Part shown: in pieces, positions 2,324 through 19,268 of the stretch
How the letters are laid out: every line of letters starts with the position of its first letter
How positions within the stretch are numbered: position 1 is the stretch's first letter
Origin: a virus
Direction: 5' to 3' (one strand)
DNA: 20,525 nt
Virus record (IMG/VR): IMGVR_UViG_3300049448_000454
Coordinates: 1 to 20,525 of that record
Program-made: the position numbers and the translations under genes
Notes under the pieces: generated by a model
Databases searched by the model: none
What the model was told of the DNA's origin: nothing
What the model saw: the letters and a program-made list of their open reading frames with translations, nothing else

Positions 2324-4198
2324 CTAGTACCCCTGAGGCTGATTCGCTTGCATCGTGCGCGGCAGCGCGCCGCCGATGGTCATGTTCATCGCAGTGCGGA
2401 ACGCCAACTGCGCGGGCGTGAGTGGCGCTCTTCGCGCGCTCGCGGCGGCGATCGCGTCAGCAGCAGCGCGCGGATTCTGGAGCAAGCCGACAAGCTCCTC
2501 GCGAGCCCCGCTATCCAAGTGCGCGGCGATCTGCTTCAGCACGGGAATCTCGCGCCCCGCGATCTTGAGCCCACCGCGTGTCGCGGCAGCGGCGTGCCCC
2601 AAGACGTCCATCGTGGTATTCGACCCGCCGCCGGAAGTGCCCACGCTCTTCAGCGTCGACTGAAGCTCCTCGCGTTGCTTGAGATGACCGAGAAGCTCAT
2701 CGAGCGACGCGCGAGCGCGCGGCTCAAGAACGTCGCCGAATTCATTCCGCCCGTACTGCTCCATCGCGCGCCCGAGCTTGTGCCGCGTCACCTCGGGGGC
2801 GCTGCCGTAGAGCTTCGCGCCCTCGCTGTCGATCGCCTCGCGGATTGACCGCTGGGCCACCGAGCTATCCACTGGGCGCGAGAGTTGCGAGTACGTCGAG
2901 AGGTAATTGCCCCAGTCTCCCGGGGCCCCGCGTTCCATGCCCGCGTCGATCGCCGCAATGAGTTTCCGCGCGTCGACTTGCGCGCCCTTGATGATGGCCG
3001 CAGTCTCGTCACCGGGCAGCATCGGCCCTTCGAGCTTGGATGCGAGGAGCTTCCTGAAGCTGTAGAGCTTCTGCGGCGTCGTGCCCTCGCCAACCTCGGC
3101 GAGCGCCATGTTGGCGAGCTTGCGCGACGGGCTCGCCAGCGCGTTCTCACCAGCGATCTGCTTCGCCACCCTCTCCATCGGAGCCTCGGTGCGCTGGAAG
3201 TGCGCCGTGGCGCTCTCGATCGCCCGCTCACGTTGTGCCCCGGTGGCAAGGTCGCGATAGTCGGCGCGGTGCTCCAAGGAGGTCGCGTCGCCGGTCGCTT
3301 CGCGCAGCGCGTCGTACGTGCCCTCGTTCTGAGCGCGCCGGAATTGCGCCCAGTCTTCGGGAGCGCCGCTCGCTGAGGTGCGCTCCATGCGCCCGAGCAC
3401 GGGCGAGCCGGTGACCTCGCCAGCAGTCGTCGGGATATTGGCCGTCGTCGGCCCCGGTTGATGAGCGCGCAGCGATGCCTCTGTCGCACCAGCTTGCGGG
3501 CCAAGCTCGTCGGCGAGCATCTCACCCGCCCGAGCGGCGCGGCCACCTGCGCCCGGGCGCATGCGCCAGAGTCCTTTGGTGGCTCCGACCGCGAGCGGAA
3601 GAGCGCCCCCGGCGACGCCGCCCGTGACCATGTTCATCGCGCGGCTCTCGTCCGAGGTCACAGGCGCGAGCGCGCCGGATGCCGCGCCGCCAGCAGCACC
3701 ACCCAGCGCCGCGACTGCCTTCGGCAGGAAACGCCCCCCGACTCGCGCTGCCATTCCTGCCCCGCCAGCCGGGATGACGAGCGACGGGGCCATCTCGCCC
3801 GCGAACTGCAGCGCGCTGCCAGCGGTCGGTGCCCAGTCGGGGGCGATCCCGAGGTCGGTCTTCTCGGCGAGGCGCTGGTCGATCGCGCGCTTCTCGCGGA
3901 GTTGCTCATCGCTCATGCCCTTCACGCCCGGGGTGATCTGCTTGAGGCCCTCCCACGCATTCGACATCCCCGCGCCGATGTTCGCGAGTGTCTTCGCGCC
4001 AGCGCCCATGCCGACAGTCGGGTCGTAGGTTGCGCGGTCCTGCTCCTGATCCGCCAAGGCCTTCGCCTTGTATTCCGGCGAACGATGGCGACGCCCGAGC
4101 CGCTCCTGCTGCACAGCAGCCTTCACCTCGGGTGCATCCGGGGCCATGCCCTCAGGGATGTCGAGGAAGATGCCGTCGCGTGTCTCGATCGTCGGCAT
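2324..4198 (-). CDS. Large internal virion / DNA-ejection-like protein
   Basis: This 624-residue protein is probably packaged in the head and ejected with the DNA. The opening ETRDGIFLDIPEGM (residues 5-18) resembles the short 'DG..ldiP.gm' N-terminal motif common in podovirus internal and ejection proteins. Residues 60-90 and especially 125-205 are rich in Gly, Ala and small hydrophobics, with several possible membrane-inserting helices (for example VAALGGAAGGAASGALAPV at 162-180). The rest, from about 215 onward, is long, charged and helical. I see no lysozyme or transglycosylase catalytic pattern. Its start overlaps the stop of the upstream gene by one base (TGATG), which indicates tight coupling with another putative internal protein. 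The ejection role rests on family habit and position, not on a specific catalytic motif. Confidence 0.75.
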   Translation of the reverse strand: MPTIETRDGIFLDIPEGMAPDAPEVKAAVQQERLGRRHRSPEYKAKALADQEQDRATYDPTVGMGAGAKTLANIGAGMSNAWEGLKQITPGVKGMSDEQLREKRAIDQRLAEKTDLGIAPDWAPTAGSALQFAGEMAPSLVIPAGGAGMAARVGGRFLPKAVAALGGAAGGAASGALAPVTSDESRAMNMVTGGVAGGALPLAVGATKGLWRMRPGAGGRAARAGEMLADELGPQAGATEASLRAHQPGPTTANIPTTAGEVTGSPVLGRMERTSASGAPEDWAQFRRAQNEGTYDALREATGDATSLEHRADYRDLATGAQRERAIESATAHFQRTEAPMERVAKQIAGENALASPSRKLANMALAEVGEGTTPQKLYSFRKLLASKLEGPMLPGDETAAIIKGAQVDARKLIAAIDAGMERGAPGDWGNYLSTYSQLSRPVDSSVAQRSIREAIDSEGAKLYGSAPEVTRHKLGRAMEQYGRNEFGDVLEPRARASLDELLGHLKQREELQSTLKSVGTSGGGSNTTMDVLGHAAAATRGGLKIAGREIPVLKQIAAHLDSGAREELVGLLQNPRAAADAIAAASARRAPLTPAQLAFRTAMNMTIGGALPRTMQANQPQGY

Positions 4199-5319
4199 CA
4201 GAAGTCCACCTTGGTCGTGCCGCCCGGTGCGATCTGGATCGGCGACTGGCGAGAGCCGCGCCCGGACTGCTGCGCTTGCGCTTGATCGCCGCCGCTCGCG
4301 CCGTAGCCGAGGACGACATTCTCAGGATCGAGCCCATACGTGCGAGCGCGCGCCTTGAACTCGTTGGCGCGCTCGTTGAAGTAGTTCAGCGCCGTGTCGC
4401 GCTCGCTCTTCGCCTGCTTGAGGAAGTCGACTCGCTGCGCTGGGGTGAGCACCACGCCCGTCAACACTTTGTTGTAGAGGTTCGCGATCTGCGCGGGCAC
4501 GCCCGTGGCATTGCGCGCCGTCGCGTATTCGCCCTCGCGCACCACCGAGGTCGGGTCGAGCATCTTCATGTACCGGAAGATCGCGCGCATGTCGCTCGCG
4601 GCGGTGGGCGTTCCAGTGAGAGCGGCCTCGATCTGCGGGTACGTCCCGAGGCTGATGCGCTGATCCTTCACCTGCTTCTCGAAGTCGTCGCGGAGCGCGT
4701 TCTCCTGCGTGAAAGAGCGCGCCGCTCGTTGCTGGTCTTGCGTGTTCTGGCGCGAGCCCGCCGTGATCCCGGCGATCATGCGTCGCGTCTCCGCTGCCTG
4801 TTGCGCCGCTGCTTCGCGCTGGGCGGTGGTCGCGGCGTTCGCCGCCATCGACTCGTAAATCTTCGCCTGCTGTTCAAGCCGTGTCGCGCGCCGCTGCGCC
4901 ACCACCTCGGGGTCGTTGAAGAACTGCCCTCCAGAGACGATGCCCCCGCCGAGCTTCTCGGGCTCTTGCGCGGCGAGCGCCTGCTTGAGCACCTGCGCGC
5001 CGACCGGCTGGAACGCCGAGCCGCCCATCACCTGCATCACCATGCCGCGATCAAAATCGCGCTGCGCCCCTTCCTCGCGCTTCCTCGCGTACTCGCGCAT
5101 CGCCCCGACGTCAGCATCGTTCGGCTGCGTCGACTGTGCCTGCGCGAGCAGGTCAAGCGCCTTGCGCCGATATTCATCACCGGCATCAACTTGTGGCGCA
5201 GGCTTCGGCGCGAGCGCCTGCTTCAGCACACGCGGCGGCGGCTGCAGCGTCGGGTTCGCCGGGTCGAACGGCGCGTCGAACGGCGACTCGTCGAAGAGCG
5301 GAGAGTAGGGTTCAGACAC
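4198..5319 (-). CDS. Putative internal virion protein
   Basis: This is a 373-residue, mostly helical protein. Residues 243-305 hold a motif I recognise from podovirus internal virion proteins: RAIFRYMKMLDPTSVVREGE, followed by an 'A.GVP.Q..NLYN..LTG..L.P.QR.DFL' stretch. In larger ejection proteins the same segment can sit beside a transglycosylase domain, but no such domain is present here. Residues 140-210 are Ala/Gln/Arg-rich and likely coiled coil. The N-terminal 30 residues are Pro- and acidic-rich. The heptapeptide VLKQALA appears twice (residues 31-37 and 110-116), possibly by chance. The start overlaps the upstream stop by eight bases, and the stop overlaps the next start by one base. 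It probably works with the 624-residue protein in DNA delivery. Confidence 0.72.
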   Translation of the reverse strand: MSEPYSPLFDESPFDAPFDPANPTLQPPPRVLKQALAPKPAPQVDAGDEYRRKALDLLAQAQSTQPNDADVGAMREYARKREEGAQRDFDRGMVMQVMGGSAFQPVGAQVLKQALAAQEPEKLGGGIVSGGQFFNDPEVVAQRRATRLEQQAKIYESMAANAATTAQREAAAQQAAETRRMIAGITAGSRQNTQDQQRAARSFTQENALRDDFEKQVKDQRISLGTYPQIEAALTGTPTAASDMRAIFRYMKMLDPTSVVREGEYATARNATGVPAQIANLYNKVLTGVVLTPAQRVDFLKQAKSERDTALNYFNERANEFKARARTYGLDPENVVLGYGASGGDQAQAQQSGRGSRQSPIQIAPGGTTKVDF

Positions 5320-5677
5320 CGCCGTATTGCCCGGTCTGATCGTTGAACTGCGAAGGGTCGTAGTTGTTGACGCTGGGCGGGGCGATCGGCAGGCTGTTCT
5401 GCTGCCGCCGCTGGCCCATCGCGTTGAGCCAGTCCTTCCGGCCAGCGGAGAGTCCCTGCGCGTCCTTCATGGTCTTGTAATCCAACATCGCGCCGCTGAT
5501 GCCGCGCAGCCCCTGCGCGATCTGCGAGGCCTTGTCGATGCGGTTGCCGCCGCCCTCTCGCAAGTCCTTCGCCATTGCCTGCTGCCGGGCGATCTGCTGC
5601 TCTTGCCCGGTGAGGTCTTGCAGCTTCATCATCTGCGCCCACTGGTCATCGGTGTAATACGGGGTATTGGTCGGCAT
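5312..5677 (-). CDS. Small Gln-rich virion-associated protein
   Basis: This 121-residue protein is rich in Gln, Met, Asp and Gly, with no signal peptide or membrane helix. A helical N-terminal half (residues 10-42) is followed by SQIAQGLRGISGAMLDYKTM at 51-70. Short proteins with a similar 'QG...ga..dy...' segment often lie between the Gln-rich virion protein and the ejection proteins in podovirus late operons, so a minor internal virion protein is the best guess. A GAAAGGAAA ribosome binding site lies upstream, in the 12-base gap after the diiron-protein gene. It overlaps the next gene by eight bases. I know of no proven function. Confidence 0.6.
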   Translation of the reverse strand: MPTNTPYYTDDQWAQMMKLQDLTGQEQQIARQQAMAKDLREGGGNRIDKASQIAQGLRGISGAMLDYKTMKDAQGLSAGRKDWLNAMGQRRQQNSLPIAPPSVNNYDPSQFNDQTGQYGGV

Positions 5678-5689
5678 CTCAGTTTCCTT

Positions 5690-6259
5690 TCACCGCATCC
5701 GTTCATTGAGGTAGAAGCCGAGCATCTTCGCGGTCACGAACGCGTTGTAGCAGATGATGTCCGCGAATTCCGCGTGCTCGTCGATCACGCGAGCGAGTTC
5801 CTTCGCGTGCTCGGTGTCGTGCTCGGCGTGATAGCGCACGGTGCGGATCGCGGGCGCACCGTAGACCTTCTCCAACGTCTCGACGTCCGCGAGCGGCATC
5901 GGACGGAACTCCATCGCCGCGATGTACCCGAGGAGCGCCTGCGGCCCGACATGTCGCAGGTAGTAGTACTGCGCCCCGGCTGTCGCCGCGACCGCGTGGT
6001 CGAGCTTGACCGGGGCTTCCCCGAGCAGGTCCATGTCTTCGGCGAGCCACGTCGCGTGATCCTTCTCCTCGGCGAGGTGCGACGCATAGTAGTCGCGCAG
6101 CGCGCCGCTCGACCGCTCGATCGCGAGTTCCAAGAGCGGGGCCGATGCACGCATCAGCCCGTGGCAGAACTTCAGGAACGTCACGAACTGGGCGCGCGTC
6201 TCCATCTTCGGCAGCGGCACCGAGTTGATGAGGTCGAGGGTGACGGTCGAGGGCGTCAT
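5690..6259 (-). CDS. Heme-oxygenase-like diiron (iron-containing redox enzyme, HDO-type) protein
   Basis: This 189-residue protein matches the iron-containing redox enzyme family, which has a heme-oxygenase-like fold (relatives: UndA, BesC, SznF central domain, CADD). Visible features: an N-terminal helix with H33 and E44; HLAEEKDHATWLAEDMDLLG at 61-80, carrying an E65-x2-H68 pair; AQYYYLRHVGPQALLGYIAA at 96-115 followed by E117; and YHAEHDTEHAKEL at 143-155, giving H144-x3-D148-x2-H151. Family knowledge says such Glu, His and Asp residues bind two irons and activate oxygen. Spacing of E65, E117, D148 and H151 is close to what I recall for UndA; the first ligand is uncertain (H33 or E44). The length suits a single domain and the gene looks intact. 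It sits between two virion genes with gaps of 3 and 12 bases, so it is expressed late. Substrate and role are unknown. Confidence 0.85.
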   Translation of the reverse strand: MTPSTVTLDLINSVPLPKMETRAQFVTFLKFCHGLMRASAPLLELAIERSSGALRDYYASHLAEEKDHATWLAEDMDLLGEAPVKLDHAVAATAGAQYYYLRHVGPQALLGYIAAMEFRPMPLADVETLEKVYGAPAIRTVRYHAEHDTEHAKELARVIDEHAEFADIICYNAFVTAKMLGFYLNERMR

Positions 6260-6262
6260 GGG

Positions 6263-7249
6263 TCAGTACATCATCATCGCGGTCAAGCCCAAGCTCGCAG
6301 CGGACCCGGCAAGCTGGCCGTATTGGTTCGACGTGTTCTGGTTGAGTTGCGTCGCCCCGAGCCCGTACTGGCCCTGCGATTGCGCCGCGCCGAGGAGGTC
6401 GGGAGTCTGCCCCTGCGTCGCGGGAGCGAAAGATGGCATCTGCGGCATCGACACCTGCTGCCCGGTGAGCAGCGCGTTCAATTCGTTGAGCGGCATGCCG
6501 CGCCGCTGCGCTTCCTCGGCGATCCCCGCGTTGCGAAGCTGCTGCTGCTGGTTGATCGACGCCGCCGACTGACCGTACTGCTGCGCCTGCTCGGACTGGC
6601 CCTGCTGCATCGCTTGCCCGAGCAGGTTCTTGTCCTCCTGCGTCCACTGGCTCTGCAGTTGCTGGCCCGCGCGGTTTGCCGCCTCGCTCCCCGTGGGCAG
6701 GCCCATGTTCGCGAGCTTCGTGTCGAGTTCGGATTGCTGCTGCTGGCGCTGGGGCTGCAGCATCTGGCTCATCTGACTGTACGCGTTCTGCTGCGCGCCC
6801 CTGATGTCGCCACCCTGCGCGGCCTGCGTGGGCGCACTGGGCATGCTCGACCAGTCGAACGGCGTCGCCGTCGCGCTCGTCGCCTGCCCGAGAAGCTGTT
6901 GCGCGGCCCCCGAGCGGCCCTGCTGTATCGCCTGCTGCGAGTCGAGCGAGGCCTGCTGATCGGGAGACAGGTTGATGTTCTGGTTCCACGTCGTGACGTT
7001 CTGTCCGGTTGCAGGATCGACCGCCGTGCCCGTGCCCCACGTCTGCGAGCCCCACGGCGTGTTGACGGTCGGGCGATTCGCCCATGTGTTCTGCGTCGCG
7101 AGTTGCTGGCTCGCTGCGGCTTGCTGCTGCGCGGCCCCGGTGTAGTCGGGCGAGGCAGGCGGGCTCTTGCCACCACCACCGTGCAGCACCGAGTCAAACC
7201 ACGGATCGGGCGAGCCCCTGAGCAGAGCTTCAATGAACAGTTTGTGCAT
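6263..7249 (-). CDS. Gln-rich virion protein, probable internal/DNA-transfer protein
   Basis: This 328-residue protein is very rich in Gln, Ala, Ser and Asn. After a short hydrophobic/Gly segment (residues 3-28) it shows the pattern 'DYTGAAQQQA' (35-44), NRPTVNTPWGSQTW (58-71) and NLSPDQQASLD (93-103). That set recurs in a family of podovirus virion proteins in which a 'vnq.tPyGs.ty' stretch is followed by 'LSpeQQ.l.d'. These are usually annotated as virion or tail-fibre-domain proteins and are thought to be internal or DNA-transfer proteins; I prefer the latter. The remainder is low-complexity helical sequence. A GGAGAG ribosome binding site precedes the ATG. The gene overlaps the acetyltransferase gene upstream by 20 bases and ends three bases before the diiron-protein start. 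Confidence 0.75.
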   Translation of the reverse strand: MHKLFIEALLRGSPDPWFDSVLHGGGGKSPPASPDYTGAAQQQAAASQQLATQNTWANRPTVNTPWGSQTWGTGTAVDPATGQNVTTWNQNINLSPDQQASLDSQQAIQQGRSGAAQQLLGQATSATATPFDWSSMPSAPTQAAQGGDIRGAQQNAYSQMSQMLQPQRQQQQSELDTKLANMGLPTGSEAANRAGQQLQSQWTQEDKNLLGQAMQQGQSEQAQQYGQSAASINQQQQLRNAGIAEEAQRRGMPLNELNALLTGQQVSMPQMPSFAPATQGQTPDLLGAAQSQGQYGLGATQLNQNTSNQYGQLAGSAASLGLTAMMMY

Positions 7250-7688
7250 CTGGCTCTCCGCGCCGCCACCTGTCGTCGAGGTAGCGGCAGTTGTCTTTGG
7301 TCATCCCGAGCACCACCATGTCGCCGCCCTCCTCGTGCATCCCGGGCAGGCGAAACAGTTCGCGAAAGCCGAGGTGCGCGTCCATCCGCATGGCCTTCTC
7401 GTTCTTGCTATTGACGATGCCGATCAGCGTCTCTCGCCCAGCGGTGATGAACGCGTGGCGGAACACCTCGTGCAGCATCGTGCGCGGTGAGTAGTGCCAA
7501 TCCGGTGCGAACGCGACGTGAATTTGGCAGACCTTGCCGAGGAAACCCTGCAAGCCCACCACGATCACGAGCTTGCCCTCGCTCACCCACCCGACGCACT
7601 GCATGTCCTGCGTCGGCGTGACGAAGGCGTACGTGCGAAGGAACTCGGCGAGAGCCAGCCAGTCGCGCTCGCTCCGCGCGGTGACCAT
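7230..7688 (-). CDS. GNAT-family acetyltransferase-like protein
   Basis: This 152-residue protein looks like a phage GNAT N-acetyltransferase, which would transfer an acetyl group from acetyl-CoA to an amine. A VGWVSEGKLVIVVGLQGF strand pair (about residues 32-49) is followed by a helix at TMLHEVFRHAFITAGRETLI (70-89) and the typical end 'IVNSKNEKAMRMDAHLGF' with Asn96, Ala99 and LGF at 106-108. The acetyl-CoA pyrophosphate loop (usually Q/RxxGxG/A) is degenerate, as in many phage GNATs, so activity is not assured. I chose the ATG at 7688, which shares one base with the upstream stop (TGATG); a GTG one codon earlier is also possible. GNAT genes are often found among podovirus late genes, but their targets are mostly unknown. 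Confidence 0.78.
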   Translation of the reverse strand: MVTARSERDWLALAEFLRTYAFVTPTQDMQCVGWVSEGKLVIVVGLQGFLGKVCQIHVAFAPDWHYSPRTMLHEVFRHAFITAGRETLIGIVNSKNEKAMRMDAHLGFRELFRLPGMHEEGGDMVVLGMTKDNCRYLDDRWRRGEPDAQTVH

Positions 7689-9406
7689 CACATCACACCC
7701 CCGGGCTCGGCCCAGTAGTCGATCGTGGTCAGCAACGTCTCGCGCGTGCAGCGATAGTCAAGCTGCGCGGTCGCAGCGAACCCCGCGCCGCGCGTTCCGA
7801 TCCATCGCCGCAACTGCTGACCGAGCGGCGCGCTCCAGTGCGCCGTCCCCCATATCGCTGAACCCCACGACGACTCGGGCGGCGGGATGGGAATGCTCGG
7901 CGTGACCGGGGAGACGGGAAGCCCATAGTCGATCAGCATCTGCACCGTCACCGTCGGCTTCGTCGAGGCGAGGAACGTCGGGCGCACGAGCGTGAATCGC
8001 TTCTGCAGCCCCGGCGCGCCCATGGCCTGATAGGCGGGCGTCACCTGACACAGGATCGGCTGGCCGCTCGTGGTCGGCGCGGCGATGGTCACGTTGTCGA
8101 GCGTGCCGTCAAACGCGCGCACCACGCGCCCGTCGTTCGTCCCGGCGAAGATGTCGGAGTCGATCGAGACGTAGCAGGTATAGGGCATCGCCTTGAACAT
8201 CGACCACGCTCCGTTGGTGACCTTGAGCGCGAATACGTCGCCGGGGTTTTGCAGTGCGGTCGGCGGCACGTTGACCGTGAGAAGTTCCTCGGCTGGCAGC
8301 GATTGAACTTGCCAACCATCGAAGGTGTTGTAGTTCTGCATCAAGCTCGCGATGACCGGCGCAATCACGTACGTCGCGCGCTTCTGCTCAATCTCGCCGA
8401 GGGTCGGCGAGTTGAGCAGCGTGCTGAGTGGGGTGAGCCCGAATTGCGACAGGATGTGGACGTCGGCCCCGGTCATAATGACCGCGCGATGTCCCACCGG
8501 GAGCGGGCCCACGTTCCACACGCCGCTCAACTGGAACTCGCCGAGCGTGTCGGGGTCGGTGCCCTTATAGATCACGACGTCGCCCTGCGAAGACACCGCG
8601 ACGAGGTAATCGTCGATGCCGATGCCACCGTCGACGGTCCAATTCACAAGCGCAACCAGCTTGCCGCCACGGCGGAACTGCTCACCGAAGTCGAACATCT
8701 TCACCGTGCCGGTGATCTGGCTCACCGGGAGGTACCATGCGTGCGTGCTGTTGAACTCGATGAACCACAGGCGCTTTTTCCACTCGGTGACGTAGCAGAA
8801 CTTCGAGGGGTCCGCGCCGTTGATCTGGCCCACGCCCGCGCCAGCGACTGGCATCGTCCACGCGCCGTTGTAGATCGCGTAGCCCCCAAGCTGGTTGCAG
8901 GCGAGCAGGAACGAGCCCGCTACGTTCTGGAAATTGATCCACGACCAGAACGCAATCAAGCCCGAGCCGCCAACGCCAACCTCGGCGGTCCATGGGCCCG
9001 CGCCGCCAGCGGTGACGTCGTAGATGAAGCCGCCGCGCGCTGCGAAGAGCTTGCCCGCTGGGGGCAGCGCCTGCGCGACGGGAGCGCGCAGAATGCTGGC
9101 GGCGAGACTAATCTCGTTGCGGATGCGCGTCTTCAAGGTCGGCACGGTCGGCGCTGGGTAGTAGCTCATCAGCGTCCACACCGGGCCAACGCCGGGGATG
9201 CTGTTCGCCCATTCGGTGTAGCCCTTGCGCGTTTTGATGCCGAAGTCTTCGACAGTCACGTTGACGAGCGAGATTGCGTACTGCGGTCCCATCACCGCGA
9301 ACGCATCGCGCATGTTCAGCCCCTGCGTCGGGATGGCGACCGGGATCAACTGCCCGACTGGCGGTCGCGCCTTGCGGGTGTTCTGCAGAGTGGCGGCTCG
9401 GAACAT
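7688..9406 (-). CDS. Tail nozzle-like (tail tubular protein B role) structural protein
   Basis: This 572-residue protein matches the large beta-rich podovirus tail family that follows the adaptor gene, in the role of T7 gp12. The opening VAIPTQGLNMRDAFAVMGP (residues 23-41) and GIKTRKGYTEW are typical. Later come KKRLWFIEFNSTHAWYLPVS (210-229), FGEQFRRGGKLVALVNWTVD (240-259), DDYLVAVSSQGDVVIYKGTD (265-284) and a repeated 'G.W.vG..P.G.R' strand. Together they suggest blades of a propeller-like fold. The open frame continues 140 codons further upstream to 9826, but that part is an Arg/His-rich reading of the adaptor gene in another frame. The true start is therefore the ATG at 9406, two bases after the adaptor stop. 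No clear ribosome binding site is seen there, so translational coupling is likely. Confidence 0.85.
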   Translation of the reverse strand: MFRAATLQNTRKARPPVGQLIPVAIPTQGLNMRDAFAVMGPQYAISLVNVTVEDFGIKTRKGYTEWANSIPGVGPVWTLMSYYPAPTVPTLKTRIRNEISLAASILRAPVAQALPPAGKLFAARGGFIYDVTAGGAGPWTAEVGVGGSGLIAFWSWINFQNVAGSFLLACNQLGGYAIYNGAWTMPVAGAGVGQINGADPSKFCYVTEWKKRLWFIEFNSTHAWYLPVSQITGTVKMFDFGEQFRRGGKLVALVNWTVDGGIGIDDYLVAVSSQGDVVIYKGTDPDTLGEFQLSGVWNVGPLPVGHRAVIMTGADVHILSQFGLTPLSTLLNSPTLGEIEQKRATYVIAPVIASLMQNYNTFDGWQVQSLPAEELLTVNVPPTALQNPGDVFALKVTNGAWSMFKAMPYTCYVSIDSDIFAGTNDGRVVRAFDGTLDNVTIAAPTTSGQPILCQVTPAYQAMGAPGLQKRFTLVRPTFLASTKPTVTVQMLIDYGLPVSPVTPSIPIPPPESSWGSAIWGTAHWSAPLGQQLRRWIGTRGAGFAATAQLDYRCTRETLLTTIDYWAEPGGVM

Positions 9407-9408
9407 GG

Positions 9409-10140
9409 CTATCCGAAGCCCGAGTCGGGGACGTTCGCCGCGCTGTCGATGTAGCGGAAGCCACCGGGCATCGGGCCCGAGAGCGTGAGCGCCTGCGCGA
9501 CCTTGTCGTGCCCGAGCAGGAGCGACATGCGGTCGTTGAAGTCGCTCTGCACCGCGACCGTCGCCATGCCCTTCTGCTCCAGCCACTTGAGCTTGATCGC
9601 GAGCACCATCAGCAACCAGTCGAGGCGCGGCATGTCCGAATTCAGAGTGGCGCGCTGCTTGAAGAGCGTCGGGGTGACGCCGTCGATCACCCAGTTCGCA
9701 TCGACGTACTCGATGGTGATCACCTCGCCGTTCATCGGCGCGACGAGGAACTGAAGCTGGTCGGCGAAGATGCGGCACATCGGGCTGATGGTGAGTTTCG
9801 GCACCCAAGCCTTCGCCGCCGCCCACTGCTGTGCATTCACGATCACGATCGGGCGGCGCATCGTGGTCGACCAGCCGGTGTCGTCAACGAAGCGCGAGAA
9901 GTCGGCTGGAAGGGGAAACGTGGTCAAGACCCCGTTGCCCGCGACCGTGAACGTCTTGCGAAGCTGCTGCCAGTCGTAGGCCTCGGCGACCATGATCCCG
10001 GCGAGATTCGCCACGCTCCCCATGAGGAGCGCCGTTTCGTCGGTGGAGTCGTACACGCCCGGAGGAGCGGGCAGCGACATCTGCACCGAGGCCTGCTGCA
10101 CCTCGTAGAGGATCGTGTCGAGCTTTTGGGCCGAGGCCAT
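9409..10140 (-). CDS. Tail adaptor / head-to-tail connector protein
   Basis: This 243-residue protein fits the podovirus adaptor family that joins the portal to the tail (T7 gp11 or P22 gp4 role). The pattern is AEAYDWQQLRKTFTV at 52-66, then TTFPLPADFSRFVDDTGW at about 73-90, then a RRPIVIVNAQQWAAAKA stretch. Next come a FADQLQFLVAP strand, ITIEYVDANWVIDG, and LDWLLMVLAIKLKWLEQKG near 173-191. The order 'DWq.L ... fpLP.DF.rfvd.t.W ... Q.W' is characteristic. It is followed directly by the nozzle-like gene, which is the standard order for this tail type. A TGAGG ribosome binding site overlaps the stop of the preceding gene, eight bases upstream. Confidence 0.85.
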   Translation of the reverse strand: MASAQKLDTILYEVQQASVQMSLPAPPGVYDSTDETALLMGSVANLAGIMVAEAYDWQQLRKTFTVAGNGVLTTFPLPADFSRFVDDTGWSTTMRRPIVIVNAQQWAAAKAWVPKLTISPMCRIFADQLQFLVAPMNGEVITIEYVDANWVIDGVTPTLFKQRATLNSDMPRLDWLLMVLAIKLKWLEQKGMATVAVQSDFNDRMSLLLGHDKVAQALTLSGPMPGGFRYIDSAANVPDSGFG

Positions 10141-11914: not shown

Positions 11915-12880
11915 TTACGGCGAGATGAGCCGTCCTTGGAACTGCGAGCCGCTGCTCGTGAGGTTCCCCGCCCAGCCGATGATCTGCACCTCGGCGTCTT
12001 GGTTGATCGCGTACCGCTTGTTGGGCGCGAGCGGCACCATGTTGCGCGCCGAGTGCGGGCGGTAGAACAGGTACTTCGTGTTGAGGAAGAACATCGTCTT
12101 CGCTGGGCAGAAGCCGCCGATGCCCCCGTCGAGCACGACGTCCGCGTCCATGTACTTGATGGTCGGGAAGCCGAGCGTCGCGCGGTTGGGATCGGTGAAC
12201 CGCTGATTCGCCTGCAGCGAGGCGATGTAAATGCCCCACATGAAGCCGTCCATGACGATGAGGTCCGGGCGGTCCATGCCGCGCACGAGCGATGCCCACA
12301 TGGTGTTCATCGCGCCCTGCACGGTGAGGTTGGTGAGCGCCGCGCCTGCGGTGGTCGTCTTCGAGCGCCAGAACGTCCACGTCACGCGGTCGATGCCGCC
12401 GTAGGTGCCCGCCGCCGGGTTGACCGGCACGGCTGCGTCGAGCCCGGTGATCTGCTTGCCGCCGTTCGCAGTGCCGTCCGAGTACACGCCGCCCGCGAGC
12501 AGGTTCGACATCGTGCTCTCAGCGACGCCGAGCCGCGCGTCGATGAGGTCGATCATCTGCTCCCGGCCCGCGTTCTGCAGTTGCTCAAGCCCGGAGATGA
12601 TGACGGGGCACGCGGCCTGCTTCAGGTCGAACTGCGCCGCGCTGATCACGTCCTGCGCCGCGACCGGCAGCAAGTCGTAACCCGAGTACCAGCCTGCGTT
12701 GCCGTTCTCAGCGAAGCTCAGTTCCTGCAGGATGGTCGAGCCACCCGAGACGGTCTTGATGTTGCCGCGCGAGTCGATGTACGTGAGCAGCGCGTTGTTC
12801 TTGGTGACGTTGTCGGCGATCTTGCGCGAGCGACTCTCGATCGTCGTCGCGACGATGTCCGAAACATTTGGGAAGGCCAC
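11915..12880 (-). CDS. Major capsid protein
   Basis: This 321-residue protein is the main head shell subunit, presumably of HK97-like fold. Recognisable parts: an N-terminal segment with 'IADNVTKNNALLTYI' (21-35) and 'GGSTILQELSFAEN' (46-59); WYSGYDLLPVAAQDVISAAQ (64-83); the 'NGGKQITGLDAAVPV.P..GTYGGIDR' stretch (139-165) with a following FWR; and the C-terminal EVQIIGWAGNLTSSGSQFQG (about 297-316). This combination is typical of a widespread podovirus capsid family of similar length. The start is GTG at 12880 with AGAGGAG seven bases upstream; no in-frame ATG precedes it closely. The gene is set apart from its neighbours by a 182-base structured leader and a downstream terminator, which suggests separate control of its dosage. 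Confidence 0.88.
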   Translation of the reverse strand: MAFPNVSDIVATTIESRSRKIADNVTKNNALLTYIDSRGNIKTVSGGSTILQELSFAENGNAGWYSGYDLLPVAAQDVISAAQFDLKQAACPVIISGLEQLQNAGREQMIDLIDARLGVAESTMSNLLAGGVYSDGTANGGKQITGLDAAVPVNPAAGTYGGIDRVTWTFWRSKTTTAGAALTNLTVQGAMNTMWASLVRGMDRPDLIVMDGFMWGIYIASLQANQRFTDPNRATLGFPTIKYMDADVVLDGGIGGFCPAKTMFFLNTKYLFYRPHSARNMVPLAPNKRYAINQDAEVQIIGWAGNLTSSGSQFQGRLISP

Positions 12881-14312: not shown

Positions 14313-14507
14313 ATGCCCAACTTCAAAGTCAAGCGCGAGACACCCTTGAGCCCCGAGCACGCTCGCCAGTGGGAGCGGTTCACGGGCCTGCCGTACGACG
14401 TCGAGGCCGACGCTCGCGCCAAGGAATGGCAGGCGTTCAATCTGTACCACCTTGAGCAGAAGAGGGCTGCTGCAAAACTTCGGCGACGATCGGGGCGAGC
14501 AAAGTAG
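14313..14507 (+). CDS. Small plus-strand protein of unknown function, probably leaderless
   Basis: This 64-residue protein starts MPNFKVKRETPLSPEHARQW and ends in a strongly basic tail (EQKRAAAKLRRRSGRAK, residues 48-64). The middle is charged and helical (residues 15-50). The tail could contact nucleic acid, but I see no helix-turn-helix and recognise no family. It is the only plus-strand gene inside the late block. The frame stays open upstream, but the extended -10 just before the ATG at 14313 marks that codon as the start. There is no ribosome binding site, consistent with a leaderless mRNA. Its last 71 bases are antisense to the 3' end of the 574-residue gene. A chance frame cannot be excluded, but promoter placement and the lack of another gene in this gap support it. 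Confidence 0.55.
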   Translation: MPNFKVKRETPLSPEHARQWERFTGLPYDVEADARAKEWQAFNLYHLEQKRAAAKLRRRSGRAK

Positions 14508-16161
14508 TCGCGCCCATCACCGAGAGCAGCGTCGCATCACCGGAGCGCAGCCGCGACTCCATCTCGGCCTTGGAAATTCCCATGTGTTTCGCCTTGTCCT
14601 CGATCAGGTGCTCGAAGTGGTCGGCGTATGACTTCGACTCGCCGATGATCGACGACCCACGGTACTTCTGCCCGTAGAGTTCGCTGGTGTTCTTGATGCG
14701 CTCGCGGATGCCCGTCCACACGTCGGCGCTGAAGTCCCTGAGCGAGCGACGACCCGACGCGACCTCAGGGTGGCTCGCGATCGCGGCCTTCAGCGTCTGG
14801 TACTGCTTGCCCGGGTCGAGGATGCCCTCGGCTGCGCTGGTGTAGATGCCCTTCGACGGGTCTTCAGCGACGCGCGCCCAGTGGCGATCGAGCACCGCCG
14901 CGTTCGGGTCGCCCATCATCGCCTGCGCTTCCTCGCGCACCTTGTCCTGCTGCAGTTCATCGAGCGCACCGCGAGAAGCTCGTTCAAGGTTGCCGACGCG
15001 CACGTTCTCCATGCCGATCTGCTTCCCGGGTTGCCGCGTCATCTGGCCCTCGGGCACGCGCCAGTCGGGCTGCACGGGCGGTTCACCTTTGATGTGCCGC
15101 CGCAGATACTCCGACATCGTCTGCAGGTTGCCGCGCGGCTCGGAATTCGGCGCGGTCGCTGCAGTGAAGCCCGCGACCTGAGGCAAGTTCTTCTCGCCGT
15201 ACACGCGCTCGAAGGGCCCGCCGTGCATGTCCCACCACTCCTTCTCACCGAATTGCTTCAAGTAGTCTCGGCCCTCCGCACCCATCTCGGTGAGGCGCTG
15301 CGCGAACTCCGGGCCCTTCACGAACTGCTCCCAGTTGCCGACGTCGAAAGTTTTGCCCTCGCCGACGTTATAGCCAGAGATTTGCCCGCTGCGCTCGCCG
15401 TACTTGGTCGCCTGCCGTAGCTCATCGCTCGGGAAACGCCGCGAGACATCGACGTAGGTCTTGCCGCCTTCGGATGGGTCTTTCCAAGTGCCGAGATAGG
15501 TGTCATCGCGAGCGAGCCCCGCTTCGTTCTTCTTCACCATCTCGATGATCTTCTGCCGCGTGAGCGCATCGACCACCGCGTTGCGCTCGTCGGTGTTGGC
15601 GTACTTGCCCATCATCAGCCCTTCGGTCGGGCGCTCGCCTGAGGGCAGGTTCACCGAGTAGCCGCCGCGCTTCGTCGTCTCGTTCACGATGCGCCCTGCG
15701 GTGGTGGTCGGGAACTCGCCGAGTCTCGCCACCGCTTTCGTCGCTTTCGCGCCCTTCGGAGCGATCACGTTCGCCCCGGCGAGGATCGCCGCACCGAGAG
15801 CGGGCGCGCGATCGCCGACCGGGTCAACGAGGTGCTCCTTGAGCGGATCGGTCACCGCGCTAAAGCCCTCGCCGACGTTCTCGACCGCGCGCTGCCCGAC
15901 GTCCGAGCGTGGCTCGTACGTCCAGTAGTCGGCGGTGTCTCCCGCTCGCTGTGTTGCGCGCTCCAGAGCGCGTTGCGGGTGACGCACCGACTCGGGGTTC
16001 ACCAGAAAATCGCCGAGCCCCGCGATCCCGGCAGGCACTTGCGCGAGCGCACCCGAGCCGAGCGTGAGCGCAGTCTCGCCGAGCCCGGTGCCGAAGTCGC
16101 CAACGGCGCGCAGCTTCCTCTTGACCGAGTCAAGGTAGAGGTCGCCGAGGTCGTCGTTCAT
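14437..16161 (-). CDS. Large virion/ejection-like protein with a DUF7178- or HhH-GPD-like core
   Basis: This 574-residue protein is composite. Residues 20-55 and 115-135 are Gly/Ala-rich and hydrophobic, as in proteins that cross membranes during DNA delivery. Residues 167-245 contain GYSVNLPSGERPTEGLMMGK and YVDVSRRF, a stretch I associate with phage and plasmid polyvalent proteins. Residues 275-345 include KEWWDMHGGPFERVYGE and GFTAATAPNSEPRGN. Residues 405-435 include 'MMGDPNAAVLDRHWARVAED', which resembles the 'vDtHv.Rv' end of HhH-GPD DNA glycosylases and the DUF7178 group. A final helical region follows, with one hydrophobic segment at 544-562. The catalytic identity is uncertain. The frame is open to 16293, but the upstream 44 codons lie over the preceding gene; the ATG at 16161 overlaps that gene's stop (ATGA). 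Confidence 0.62.
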   Translation of the reverse strand: MNDDLGDLYLDSVKRKLRAVGDFGTGLGETALTLGSGALAQVPAGIAGLGDFLVNPESVRHPQRALERATQRAGDTADYWTYEPRSDVGQRAVENVGEGFSAVTDPLKEHLVDPVGDRAPALGAAILAGANVIAPKGAKATKAVARLGEFPTTTAGRIVNETTKRGGYSVNLPSGERPTEGLMMGKYANTDERNAVVDALTRQKIIEMVKKNEAGLARDDTYLGTWKDPSEGGKTYVDVSRRFPSDELRQATKYGERSGQISGYNVGEGKTFDVGNWEQFVKGPEFAQRLTEMGAEGRDYLKQFGEKEWWDMHGGPFERVYGEKNLPQVAGFTAATAPNSEPRGNLQTMSEYLRRHIKGEPPVQPDWRVPEGQMTRQPGKQIGMENVRVGNLERASRGALDELQQDKVREEAQAMMGDPNAAVLDRHWARVAEDPSKGIYTSAAEGILDPGKQYQTLKAAIASHPEVASGRRSLRDFSADVWTGIRERIKNTSELYGQKYRGSSIIGESKSYADHFEHLIEDKAKHMGISKAEMESRLRSGDATLLSVMGATTLLAPIVAEVLQQPSSAQGGTD

Positions 16162-16835
16162 CTGCCGCTCTGCCGTTTCAGTTCCTCGCGCGCTGCGTCC
16201 ATCGCTTCCTGCTGCTGGCGGAAGGCGTTCGCGGTCGTGCGTGCTGCAGGGTCTTCTGGTGTGTCGTCGCGCAACGCGCGCGAGAGCCCCCACGCGCCAA
16301 GGCCACCAGCAGCCATCCCGCCTGCGAGCTTGGGCGACATGAAGCCGCGCTGCGCGCTGGGTCCGCCACGCAGCAAGAATGCGTACGGGTCTGCCGCTTC
16401 CCGCGCGGCTGTCTGTGTCGCGAGAGCTTCTCGCTCCGCTGCCGCGCGCAGCGCCCGGGAAGTCGCCACCTGCTTGATCGCCTTCGCGCCGAGCGCGCCA
16501 GTGCCCCCGGTGATGAAGTTCGCAGGATCGAGGAGGTGAGCCCCGAGCCGCACACCCTGATCGCTCGAAGCCTGCGCGAATGGCGACTCCTGCATCTGCG
16601 GCTCGGAGGGCGGGTCAATCGGCGAACGCCCGGTCCCACCCTCGGGTGGGCCGAAAGTGCCGCGCGGCGCGAGACTGCGCCCGAAGTTAGCGAGGCCTTG
16701 GTAGTTCTGCGCGATCTGGCGCGCGATGCCCTCGCCCTGAGTGCTCGCTCGCCGCAGCATGCCCTTGCCCAGCGACCCGAGCGTAGTTGTCGAGATGGGC
16801 TCGAAGGTGCGACCGTCGTCGCTCTCGTCAGCCAC
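16158..16835 (-). CDS. Virion-associated protein with one hydrophobic helix, unknown function
   Basis: This 225-residue protein has a polar N-terminal third, a Pro/Gly-rich stretch (about 58-85), and a helical region with LLDPANFITGGTGALGAKAI (101-120). It then has a Gly/Ala-rich hydrophobic segment (KLAGGMAAGGLGAWGLSRAL, 168-187) that could span or insert into a membrane, and a Gln/Arg-rich C-terminal helix. It starts with GTG, eight bases before the end of the upstream stop, and a GGAGAAG ribosome binding site lies seven bases upstream. The next gene begins in its stop codon. The similar Gly/Ala-rich character of this and the 574-residue protein suggests a shared role in DNA delivery, but I recognise no family. 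Confidence 0.62.
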   Translation of the reverse strand: MADESDDGRTFEPISTTTLGSLGKGMLRRASTQGEGIARQIAQNYQGLANFGRSLAPRGTFGPPEGGTGRSPIDPPSEPQMQESPFAQASSDQGVRLGAHLLDPANFITGGTGALGAKAIKQVATSRALRAAAEREALATQTAAREAADPYAFLLRGGPSAQRGFMSPKLAGGMAAGGLGAWGLSRALRDDTPEDPAARTTANAFRQQQEAMDAAREELKRQSGR

Positions 16836-17133
16836 GATGCTTCTCCAGTGCGCGCGCGATGTCGCCCTTGCGCGATACGTCCTTGCCCTGCAGGGCCTGC
16901 GCGCGCTGCTGTTCTGCGCTCGCGAAGTGTCCCTTGAAGTCGTCGACGGTCGTGAGCCCCTCGCGCTTCATGAACTCGCGGTGCGACGTGCGCGAGTGGA
17001 AGCGCGGATCACCCACGTCTTGGTAGGCGCGGTCGTTCCACAGCGCGGCGTCCGAGTTCTTCGGCTCGGGCGAGTAGTTGAGCGGCACCTCGATCAGGAC
17101 GCCGTCACGCTGGATGTAGCGGCGGCGCGTCAT
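16828..17133 (-). CDS. Portal-linked conserved small protein ('YIQRDG' family)
   Basis: This 101-residue protein belongs to a conserved set of short proteins encoded directly after podovirus portal genes. It begins MTRRRYIQRDGVLIEVPLNY, continues with LWNDRAYQDVGDPRFHSRTS (31-50) and REFMKREGLTTVDDFKGHFA (52-71), and ends in a charged helix with DIARALEKH. The same order (YIQRDG, S/T-R-T-x-HREyM, LTTvdDfk) recurs in many phages; the function is not known to me. The frame is open far upstream, to 18534, but that region reads the portal gene in another frame. The ATG at 17133 overlaps the portal stop (ATGA) and is the natural start. Confidence 0.8.
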   Translation of the reverse strand: MTRRRYIQRDGVLIEVPLNYSPEPKNSDAALWNDRAYQDVGDPRFHSRTSHREFMKREGLTTVDDFKGHFASAEQQRAQALQGKDVSRKGDIARALEKHRG

Positions 17134-19268
17134 GGCCCGGGCATCGCGGCAGGAGGTGCAGGCGGCGCGCCCGTCGGGTCGCCCGGCGGCAAGCCCATCA
17201 TCGCGGCTTCGCCCATGGCCTTCGCCTGCTTGTTCTTCGCGTCGGCGACGAGCTTGAACCGATCGCCCTGAATTTTCGCGGCGGTCTTCATCTGCGTCGA
17301 CTTCACGTCGGCTGTCGCCTTCATCATGGTGCCCTGCGCGTCGGCCTGCGCGGCCACCATCCTCGGGTCGGGCTGCTGCTGCTGCGGCTGCGGTGGCGTC
17401 TGCTGCATCATCCCGATGGCCTGATCGAGCACGCCCTCGATCTGCTTCCCGGCCTTGAAGCCCGCGAGCAGCCACTGCAGAATCTGCAGGAGGAACGGCG
17501 TCGCATCGGGCTTCGCCTGCGCGAGCGGCCACACCGCCTGCACGAAAGTCGCCACCGCCGTGATGCACGCGGTGCGCGCCTCTTGCTCGGCGGCGTAGTC
17601 GACCATCGCCATCGTGTCCGGGTCGACCGCGAGCGAGTAGATCGCCATGCGCTTGTCGCGCAATAGCTCGATCGCGGGCTGCGCGTACTGCATGTCGGGG
17701 GTCTTGTCGATGAGCGAGCGCCGGATGAGCGTCTCGGGCTGGAAGTGCGCGGCCATAATCTCGGCCTTGATCGCGAGCGCGCTCTGCACGAACTCGGCAA
17801 GCTCGCCTTGCATGAACTGCATCCGCACCGAGCCGTACTGCGCCTTCAGTTGCTGCGCGGTCGCCGTCTCGCTCGCCACCGTCGCGCCGCGCATGATGTC
17901 CGAGAGGCCGGTGAGGTCGTAGAGGTCTTGCTTGAGCGCGTTCTTCACCTCGCGCAGCTTGTCGAGCGCGCCGATGATCATGTCGAGCGGGAACCAATCG
18001 ACCGCGCCCTTGATGCCGCCGCGCTCGGCGAACATCGCCCAGTTGTCCGCCGGGATCATGATGTTCTGCACGCGGTTGCTGATCAGTTGGTTGATCTGCG
18101 CGCTCGACTTGTCGTACACGCCCGCGACGCGGATCGAGTCTTCGAGAAGCGCGATGCGTGCCGAGATGACGTCGAGTTCGACGTACTGGTCGCGCAGCAT
18201 CTGGTAGTCGGCCTTCGGGATGAACGCCGTGGTGCTGACGTTCGACACGAGCGGCTTCGGGCACGGGAAGAACTCGGTGAGCCCGAGCGGGTCGGGCTGC
18301 TCGCCCAGTAGCTCGGGGAAGCCGATCACCTTCCAGCACACGTAGCGCGACTCCTTCGACCAGATTTCCCACACCTGCGCCTTCGACCACGGGTCGTTCT
18401 CGGGCAGGCTGCTGTTCTTCGCGCCGCGCGGATTTTGCAGCGGCACGCGCGAGCCGAGGTCGTTGCCGAATTTCTGCTTGAGTTGCTCGCGCGTCATCCA
18501 CACGCCGCGCGCGACCCAGCGGCACTCGCGCCATGTGCGGCAGGGCGAGTAGAGGAAGTCGCGCCAGTAGACGTAATCGGTCGCGACGTGCTCGTCGCCG
18601 ATCACTTCAAGCTCGGGCGGCGGTGGCGCACCGGCAGGGCCAGGTACTGGCGCTGCTGGTGTCATCGGCGGTGGCGGTGGGGCTTGCGGCGGCATCCCCT
18701 GCTGCGGTGGCATGCCCGGTTGAGGCGGCATTCCCGGCTGCTGCGCCGCTTGCGGTGGCATGCCCATCTGCGGCGCTTGCTGCGGCATCGCGGGCGCGGC
18801 CTGCTGCGGCGCTGGCGCTTGGTAGTCGGGGTTGGGCATGTTGACGAACGTCGGCTCGTAGCGCAGCCACATCTGCCCCATGCCCGGGACGAGCCGGTCC
18901 TCGATCGCGTTGCGAAGCGCGCTGTCGAAGTCGCTCGCACGCGAGTCCATGTCGAGGTTGAGGATGCGCTCGATGATGAGCCCGCCGACACGCGCGACGT
19001 CGTCCATCGCATCCTTGTGGCGACGCGAGACATCGGCGCGCGGCTGCTTCGCGTAGAGCGCCGCCTTCAGGATGTTGATGTTCGACCAGAACAGGTTGAA
19101 CACGCCGCCGTCATCGGCGACGCCAGCGCCCGTGGTCTTGCCCCCGAGGTACCGCTTCACCACGCGCTGGCCCGTCTCCTGCCAGCTTTGCAGTTCCTTC
19201 TTCGCCGCCGCAAGCTCGCGCTCGTAGAGGTCGGACTTCGTTTTGAACTCGGTAAGCTCTTCAGCCAT
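17130..19268 (-). CDS. Portal protein
   Basis: This 712-residue protein forms the ring at the DNA-entry vertex. Supporting parts: FNLFWSNINILKAALYAKQPRADVSRRHKD (57-86, split here as NLFWSNINILKAALYAKQPR plus following residues), a 'DYVYWRDFLYSPCRTWRECRWVARGVWMTREQL' region (231-263), and a later segment with SARIALLEDSIRVAGVYD and 'LREVKNALKQDLYDLTGLSDIMRGA', which is the classic portal stem region with the 'tGlsdimRG' motif. The C-terminus is Pro/Gln-rich and helical, like a barrel extension. Residues 150-218 are an unusual Pro/Gln/Met-rich insert. The ATG at 19268 overlaps the upstream stop by eight bases. The size is large but within the range of P22-like portals. Confidence 0.88.
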   Translation of the reverse strand: MAEELTEFKTKSDLYERELAAAKKELQSWQETGQRVVKRYLGGKTTGAGVADDGGVFNLFWSNINILKAALYAKQPRADVSRRHKDAMDDVARVGGLIIERILNLDMDSRASDFDSALRNAIEDRLVPGMGQMWLRYEPTFVNMPNPDYQAPAPQQAAPAMPQQAPQMGMPPQAAQQPGMPPQPGMPPQQGMPPQAPPPPPMTPAAPVPGPAGAPPPPELEVIGDEHVATDYVYWRDFLYSPCRTWRECRWVARGVWMTREQLKQKFGNDLGSRVPLQNPRGAKNSSLPENDPWSKAQVWEIWSKESRYVCWKVIGFPELLGEQPDPLGLTEFFPCPKPLVSNVSTTAFIPKADYQMLRDQYVELDVISARIALLEDSIRVAGVYDKSSAQINQLISNRVQNIMIPADNWAMFAERGGIKGAVDWFPLDMIIGALDKLREVKNALKQDLYDLTGLSDIMRGATVASETATAQQLKAQYGSVRMQFMQGELAEFVQSALAIKAEIMAAHFQPETLIRRSLIDKTPDMQYAQPAIELLRDKRMAIYSLAVDPDTMAMVDYAAEQEARTACITAVATFVQAVWPLAQAKPDATPFLLQILQWLLAGFKAGKQIEGVLDQAIGMMQQTPPQPQQQQPDPRMVAAQADAQGTMMKATADVKSTQMKTAAKIQGDRFKLVADAKNKQAKAMGEAAMMGLPPGDPTGAPPAPPAAMPGP
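18615..18821 (-). repeat. Pro/Gln/Met-rich low-complexity insert in the portal gene
   Basis: This stretch encodes portal residues 150-218, almost entirely Pro, Gln, Met, Ala and Gly. It includes four degenerate GMPPQ units (residues 169-173, 179-183, 185-189 and 191-195). It separates the N-terminal wing segment ending at MWLRYEPTFVNMPNPDY from the wing segment starting near ELEVIGDEHV. The unit repetition suggests growth by slippage. Confidence 0.7.

Follow-up and report, generated by a model that had tools for sequence, protein, structure and literature searches.

The gene studied here almost certainly encodes a haem-oxygenase-like dimetal oxidase/oxygenase (HDO; PF14518; UndA, BesC, AetD, HrmI and CADD), and we are just as confident that it occupies a conserved slot for an exchangeable cassette after the gp14-like gene of a phage late operon. 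Known HDOs come from bacterial pathways for natural products and cofactors. The explanation that we favour as a whole is that an HDO cassette belonging to a phage clade is made late and would oxidise the C-terminal aromatic residue of the gp14-like protein; we hold it tentatively, at somewhat less than an even chance.

The HDO gene and its operon

The window, by which we mean the whole stretch of DNA analysed, is a virus record of 20.5 kb without cellular neighbours. Its late genes lie on the minus strand in the order portal, head, tail proteins, GNAT-fold, gp14-like (phrog_6121), HDO, a 121-aa protein and two large proteins (Table 1). The HDO ORF is intact and is separated from the upstream and downstream genes by 3 and 12 bases, the gaps given in the preliminary description of this DNA. 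That description had also placed the gene inside a late virion operon, a placement that synteny upholds and that is conserved across many phages. We chose the label 'gp14-like' by position and by analogy to the ejection proteins of the T7 type; what the tools support is phrog_6121 and synteny. The AlphaFold model of this protein was poor (pLDDT 52). Three further virus contigs carry copies of the HDO that are identical or 84% identical. Two large ORFs of the head/tail operon, at 14437-16293 and 2324-4198 of the window, had no match in Pfam and PHROG searches.

Table 1. Features of the window; ligand positions are those of the HDO protein
Feature	Positions	Strand	Basis or remark
HDO gene, intact, diiron-type haem-oxygenase-like enzyme, 189 aa, ATG start	5690..6259	minus	ORF, fold and ligands
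Codons E65-x-x-H68 (ligands, core helix 1)	6056..6067	minus	Invariant in 31 phage and 62 bacterial relatives
Codon E117 (ligand)	5909..5911	minus	Alignment of relatives
Codons H144-xxx-D148-xx-H151 (ligands, core helix 3)	5807..5830	minus	Alignment of relatives
gp14-like virion structural protein	6263..7249	minus	phrog_6121, 9e-34; directly upstream of HDO; ends ...TAMMMY
Last four gp14-like codons, Met-Met-Met-Tyr	6266..6277	minus	Aromatic C-terminus typical of HDO-carrying phages; putative substrate
GNAT-fold gene	7230..7691	minus	phrog_4470; conserved neighbour upstream of the gp14-like gene
Tail nozzle-like protein	7688..9526	minus	Listed ORF extends to 9826; backbone gene for the phage tree
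Small 121-aa protein	5312..5677	minus	Next downstream of HDO (12-base gap)
Large protein, presumed ejection module	4198..5319	minus	phrog_13634
Large protein, presumed ejection module	2324..4198	minus	No family match (Pfam, PHROG)
Major head protein	11915..12880	minus	phrog_9953; puts the phage near Mx8 and BUCT555
Portal protein	17130..19268	minus	phrog_12082

Fold, ligands and family assignment

The haem-oxygenase-like fold proposed in the preliminary description, for which a predicted structure of another kind had been named as the refuting outcome, is the one returned by structure prediction. The AlphaFold model of the HDO (pLDDT 96, pTM 0.91) found proteins of the haem oxygenase (HO) fold as its best Foldseek matches in the PDB, including HrmI (TM 0.78), CADD (0.76), AetD (0.65) and UndA (0.61), and a profile search agreed (3dde, 9.5e-10). 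The expected ligand pattern (E65xxH68, E117, H144xxxD148xxH151) is present in the window protein and kept in 93 sequences: the six residues, three histidines and three carboxylates (3H/3C) on core helices, do not vary in any of the relatives, 31 distinct phage and 62 bacterial ones, and the ligand losses in close relatives that would have spoken against the assignment were not seen. D75 is likewise invariant in all of these sequences, the AQYYY and ALLGY motifs are present in the window protein, and Y98, Y99, G111 and Y112 do not vary across the 31 phage HDOs. No further acidic residue was identified as a seventh ligand on the auxiliary helix (3H/4C); E64 is kept in only 26 of the 31. We infer that the window HDO would hold a dimetal cofactor and activate O2.

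Searches with sequence families gave a mixed result. No Pfam, NCBIfam or PHROG family matched the window protein above cut-off; PF14518 did not match it, and the single weak match was to Ferritin (PF00210, E=0.004, below cut-off). PF14518 matched 11 of 18 phage relatives at E<=0.1 (best 2e-10) and, above cut-off, a Sinorhizobium fredii relative that is 35% identical in the alignment (1e-11). The profile search suggested earlier was thus negative for the window protein itself and positive for these relatives. A ferritin or Dps was rejected, since PF00210 stayed below cut-off and the fold search put HO-fold proteins first; the window HDO does not show a four-helix ferritin bundle with the ferritin ligand pattern. 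Comparison with the 84% copy indicated purifying selection (dN/dS of about 0.25; 0.082/0.324), which together with the invariant ligands excludes a degenerate protein. The copies on virus contigs, this ratio and the retention of the six ligands in relatives indicate that the gene is more than a chance reading frame.

The phage protein shares the HO-like fold and the 3H/3C ligand set with UndA, BesC, AetD, HrmI and CADD. It differs from the solved HDOs in being shorter (189 aa) and only about 9-17% identical in the fold search, and from known HDOs in lying in a late virion operon rather than a biosynthetic cluster. The likeness to CADD was seen in the fold search; CADD/PabS are self-sacrificing pABA synthases in which Tyr27 and Lys152 are sacrificed.

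A single phage clade in a fixed slot

Searches of viral contigs found HDO relatives down to about 31-40% identity, and 31 distinct phage HDOs form one clade (support 100/100) apart from all sampled bacterial HDOs, in a tree that is unrooted and from which the direction of transfer therefore cannot be read. An isolated acquisition is ruled out by the 31 distinct sequences in a single clade. A survey of phage genomes at the same locus, as had been proposed, found the HDO after the gp14-like gene in dozens of related phages; both genes were read in 30 distinct loci, and every one shows this order, nearly always with the two directly adjacent. The usual junction is a one-base TGATG overlap or a few bases, the HDO of one locus (L032) starting 262 bases on. 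Mapped on the nozzle-protein tree, the HDO was gained or lost at least 10 times on well-supported branches, always at the same slot. Our analyses therefore indicate a gene that is old in phages, mobile among them and confined to one slot.

Related phages without the HDO either have a PAPS-reductase-domain enzyme (PF01507) or a DUF7694 protein in its place, or leave the slot empty. PF01507 genes were located in the slot of four HDO-lacking relatives (L163:8688-9476, L194:9010-9708, L242:6459-7163 and L228:5405-6088), and a DUF7694 gene occupies it in L214 and L232. These phage cysH/PAPS-reductase-domain genes (phrog_424) stand exactly where the HDO would, behind the gp14-like gene of related phages, but their fold and chemistry are unrelated to those of the HDO. 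The head and tail backbone of the window, with GNAT, gp14-like and large virion proteins, is that of Mx8 (p53-p57) and of the BUCT555 late genes; Mx8 and BUCT555 differ in having no HDO, which is also absent from ppBjS10J-1, and in the S74-like end of their gp14-like protein.

The earlier statement that no role had been described for an HDO in a phage late operon agrees with our searches of PHROG, BFVD and the literature, which turned up no family, structure or paper on such a phage enzyme. None of the PHROG profiles matched any of 18 phage HDOs, the BFVD fold search gave no convincing HDO-like viral protein, and literature searches for phage with HO-like or iron-containing redox enzymes returned nothing relevant; the words 'phage' and 'virus' are absent from a 2026 review of HDOs. 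Among 369 gammaproteobacterial genomes no match was as strong as expected for the phage HDO clade. A Tunturi_5 phage match with E=0.5, which lies inside a helicase gene or next to it, was rejected as a relative. That the phage clade diversified anciently and is tied to one position of the virion operon suggests that phages adopted O2-activating chemistry for their late programme.

Bacterial relatives and peptide modification

The nearest bacterial HDOs sit in peptide-modifying (RiPP) contexts. The HDO adjoins YcaO and TfuA in 11 Rhizobiaceae loci, neighbours a radical SAM gene in the best 20 Streptomyces loci, and is found in Colwellia as two genes around a TIGR03975 radical SAM methyltransferase (651 bits). 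The candidate precursors in these bacteria, which are our own choices made by leader-like motifs, have the C-termini ...GGVVW, ...GGYLW, ...AGGALF, ...ICGF or ...ICGL.

Individual loci add detail to this picture. On the minus strand of the YcaO-HDO interval of the rhizobial locus L005 lies a conserved 67-aa ORF, with FDRLKNSNVIP near its start and an ...ICGF/L end, which recurs in L011, L013, L017 and L020 and is likely to be the precursor of the YcaO/TfuA/HDO cluster. The Streptomyces loci (L012:3781-8150, L304, L305, L309 and L255-L273) combine one or more radical SAM genes and an HDO with small candidate precursors ending in ...AGGVVW or ...AGGALF, possibly an undescribed RiPP family. In Colwellia (L018:2169-7566), where the two HDO genes flank the TIGR03975 C-methyltransferase, a papain-like protease gene is also present.

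The rhizobial YcaO/TfuA HDOs (L005, L011 and others) are about 32-35% identical to the window protein and have the same motifs. VarO, the HO-like protein of the thiovarsolin cluster, is needed for, and appears to effect, the desaturation of arginine in a ribosomal peptide (PMC6511847). TfuA clusters of Sinorhizobium that contain an HO-like gene have been compared to the thiovarsolin cluster (PMC8120280). VarO is likened to the phage HDO by description, the identity figures being those of the rhizobial HDOs, and it was not seen in those Streptomyces loci for which we inspected the neighbouring genes. By analogy, a ribosomal substrate is likely to be common to VarO, the rhizobial HDOs and the phage HDO.

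The HDOs of Streptomyces (L012, L255-L273) and Colwellia (L018) share their ligands with the phage enzyme, and their candidate precursors end in W or F and in L, respectively. They differ in lying on bacterial chromosomes with small precursor peptides, whereas the putative phage substrate is a virion protein of 328 aa. No YcaO, TfuA, radical SAM or small precursor gene was recognised in the window or in the syntenic phage loci, where the neighbours are virion genes; the window HDO may work like a RiPP tailoring HDO although the genomic neighbours by which one is recognised were not found beside it.

The C-terminal tail of the gp14-like protein

Phe or Tyr is the last residue of this protein in 28/30 distinct phages with the HDO, against 12/88 without it, and the tails that accompany the HDO usually read Ala/Met-Met-Phe/Tyr; the two remaining HDO phages (L042, L051) end in Leu or Met. 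No control protein of HDO-carrying phages ended in F, Y or W (0/25 nozzle, 0/26 GNAT and 0/30 HDO proteins; 0/81 together). Independent contrasts on the nozzle tree, 10 in number, paired the HDO with the F/Y end in the same direction in 7.2, in the opposite direction in 0 and with a tie in 2.8 (median p 0.016); restricted to gp14-like proteins without an S74-like end, the test gave p 0.06 for the HDO. Fisher values from the raw counts take no account of relatedness and do not serve as tests. We rejected the idea that the stop/start overlap itself produces the aromatic tail: the distance to the HDO start ranges from 0 to 262 bases, and such a tail is missing at other TGATG junctions.

The association is shared in part with the other occupants of the slot. 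An F/Y end is also present in 4/11 phages with a PAPS-reductase gene and in 2/2 with a DUF7694 gene in the slot, so that aromatic or Met-rich tails occur without the HDO in 6/13 of these cases and the tail may therefore mark the cassette rather than the substrate of the HDO. Many gp14-like proteins of phages lacking the HDO carry an S74-like end instead, a flag that is our own motif match with no profile behind it (43/74 empty-slot phages; none flagged among 30 with the HDO). The tail and the next gene were seemingly exchanged together, replacing the S74-like chaperone end (L192 against L194, L185 against L196), and the correlation could thus arise from exchange alone. L192 and L194 have nearly identical nozzle genes and differ in that the former type combines an S74-like end with an empty slot and the latter a PAPS gene with an aromatic tail, a difference that we read as a recent cassette exchange.

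Proposed function and alternatives

Two observations favour a peptide or protein as substrate, a proposition to which we give an even chance: the bacterial relatives are of the RiPP type, and the neighbouring virion protein has an aromatic C-terminus. The preliminary description had listed a host metabolite, a virion protein or a competitor as possible targets; the same observations narrow that list toward a peptide or protein. The leading candidate is the gp14-like C-terminus, plausible but well short of an even chance. The HDO would be made late, its translation coupled to that of the gp14-like gene, and would bind two irons (or Fe/Mn) and then activate O2; like the RiPP-tailoring HDOs, it would oxidise a ribosomally made substrate. 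Its most likely target would be the C-terminal Tyr or Phe on the Ala/Met-rich tail, whose free carboxylate could bind Fe1, the iron that the substrate ligates in five determined HDO structures (PMC13108848). The tail data and the ends of the candidate precursors fit an enzyme whose target is a C-terminal residue, aromatic or hydrophobic, that bears a free carboxylate. Were this residue desaturated, decarboxylated or hydroxylated, the tail would be capped or made more rigid, either ahead of virion assembly or while it proceeds.

A serious though doubtful alternative is that the HDO is an auxiliary enzyme, made late or ejected, whose substrate is a small host metabolite such as a free amino or fatty acid; the slot would then be a tolerated cargo position. 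Amino or fatty acids are the substrates of most characterised HDOs (PMC13108848), and UndA, BesC, AetD and HrmI act in this way; moreover, the content of the slot is often exchanged, and the cargo position is also used by PAPS-reductase-domain genes, the alternative slot gene falling in the PHROG category 'moron, auxiliary metabolic gene and host takeover'. However, the nearest bacterial relatives are of the peptide-tailoring type, the tie to the gp14-like C-terminus would be left unexplained, and restriction to a single slot would be odd for a free cargo gene. The presence of the HDO within a presumed ejection module, in which the downstream protein of L024 matches tail-injection transglycosylase profiles, would also suit an enzyme packaged or ejected beside the gp14-like protein that consumes O2, H2O2 or iron on entry and so protects the genome or counters redox defence. 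In dried Acinetobacter the HDO-domain protein DtpC keeps H2O2 in check, an activity that requires predicted metal ligands, but it gave no protection against acute H2O2 (PMC13232832). We consider this role unlikely, as packaging has no direct sign and conservation extends to motifs other than the ligands (YY, GY), which points towards a specific substrate.

The distribution of the S74-like end (0/30 against 43/74, as above) is what one might expect if the HDO were a structural or chaperone-like helper of the gp14-like protein, taking over from the S74-like intramolecular chaperone, and if its catalysis had become secondary or had been lost. This is very unlikely, because all metal ligands, which a non-catalytic helper would not need, are invariant in 31 divergent phage HDOs, and many phages lack both the HDO and the S74-like end.

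Oxidation of the gp14-like tail remains our preferred reading. The claim that a phage diiron oxygenase modifies the C-terminal aromatic residue of an ejection protein post-translationally, by RiPP-type chemistry and from an exchangeable slot used elsewhere by a different enzyme, is somewhat doubtful as it stands. If the gp14-like C-terminus is the substrate, it would be a case of enzymatic oxidation of a phage virion protein and would connect a RiPP-type enzyme with genome ejection in a way open to direct test. The alternative slot occupants are natural comparisons. The HDO itself is possibly packaged into the virion; its operon position fits packaging and late cargo expression equally.

Lifestyle of the phage

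A 39.5 kb contig with the same genes, from a near-identical phage (L314), encodes an integrase, and the window phage is therefore probably temperate. Judging by their IMG numbers, two records of the phage set (L034 and L185) appear to derive from isolate genomes. An ORF on that contig (L314:4916-5542; no PHROG match) looks by eye like an outer-membrane beta-barrel protein with a signal-like start and is perhaps a lysogenic conversion gene.
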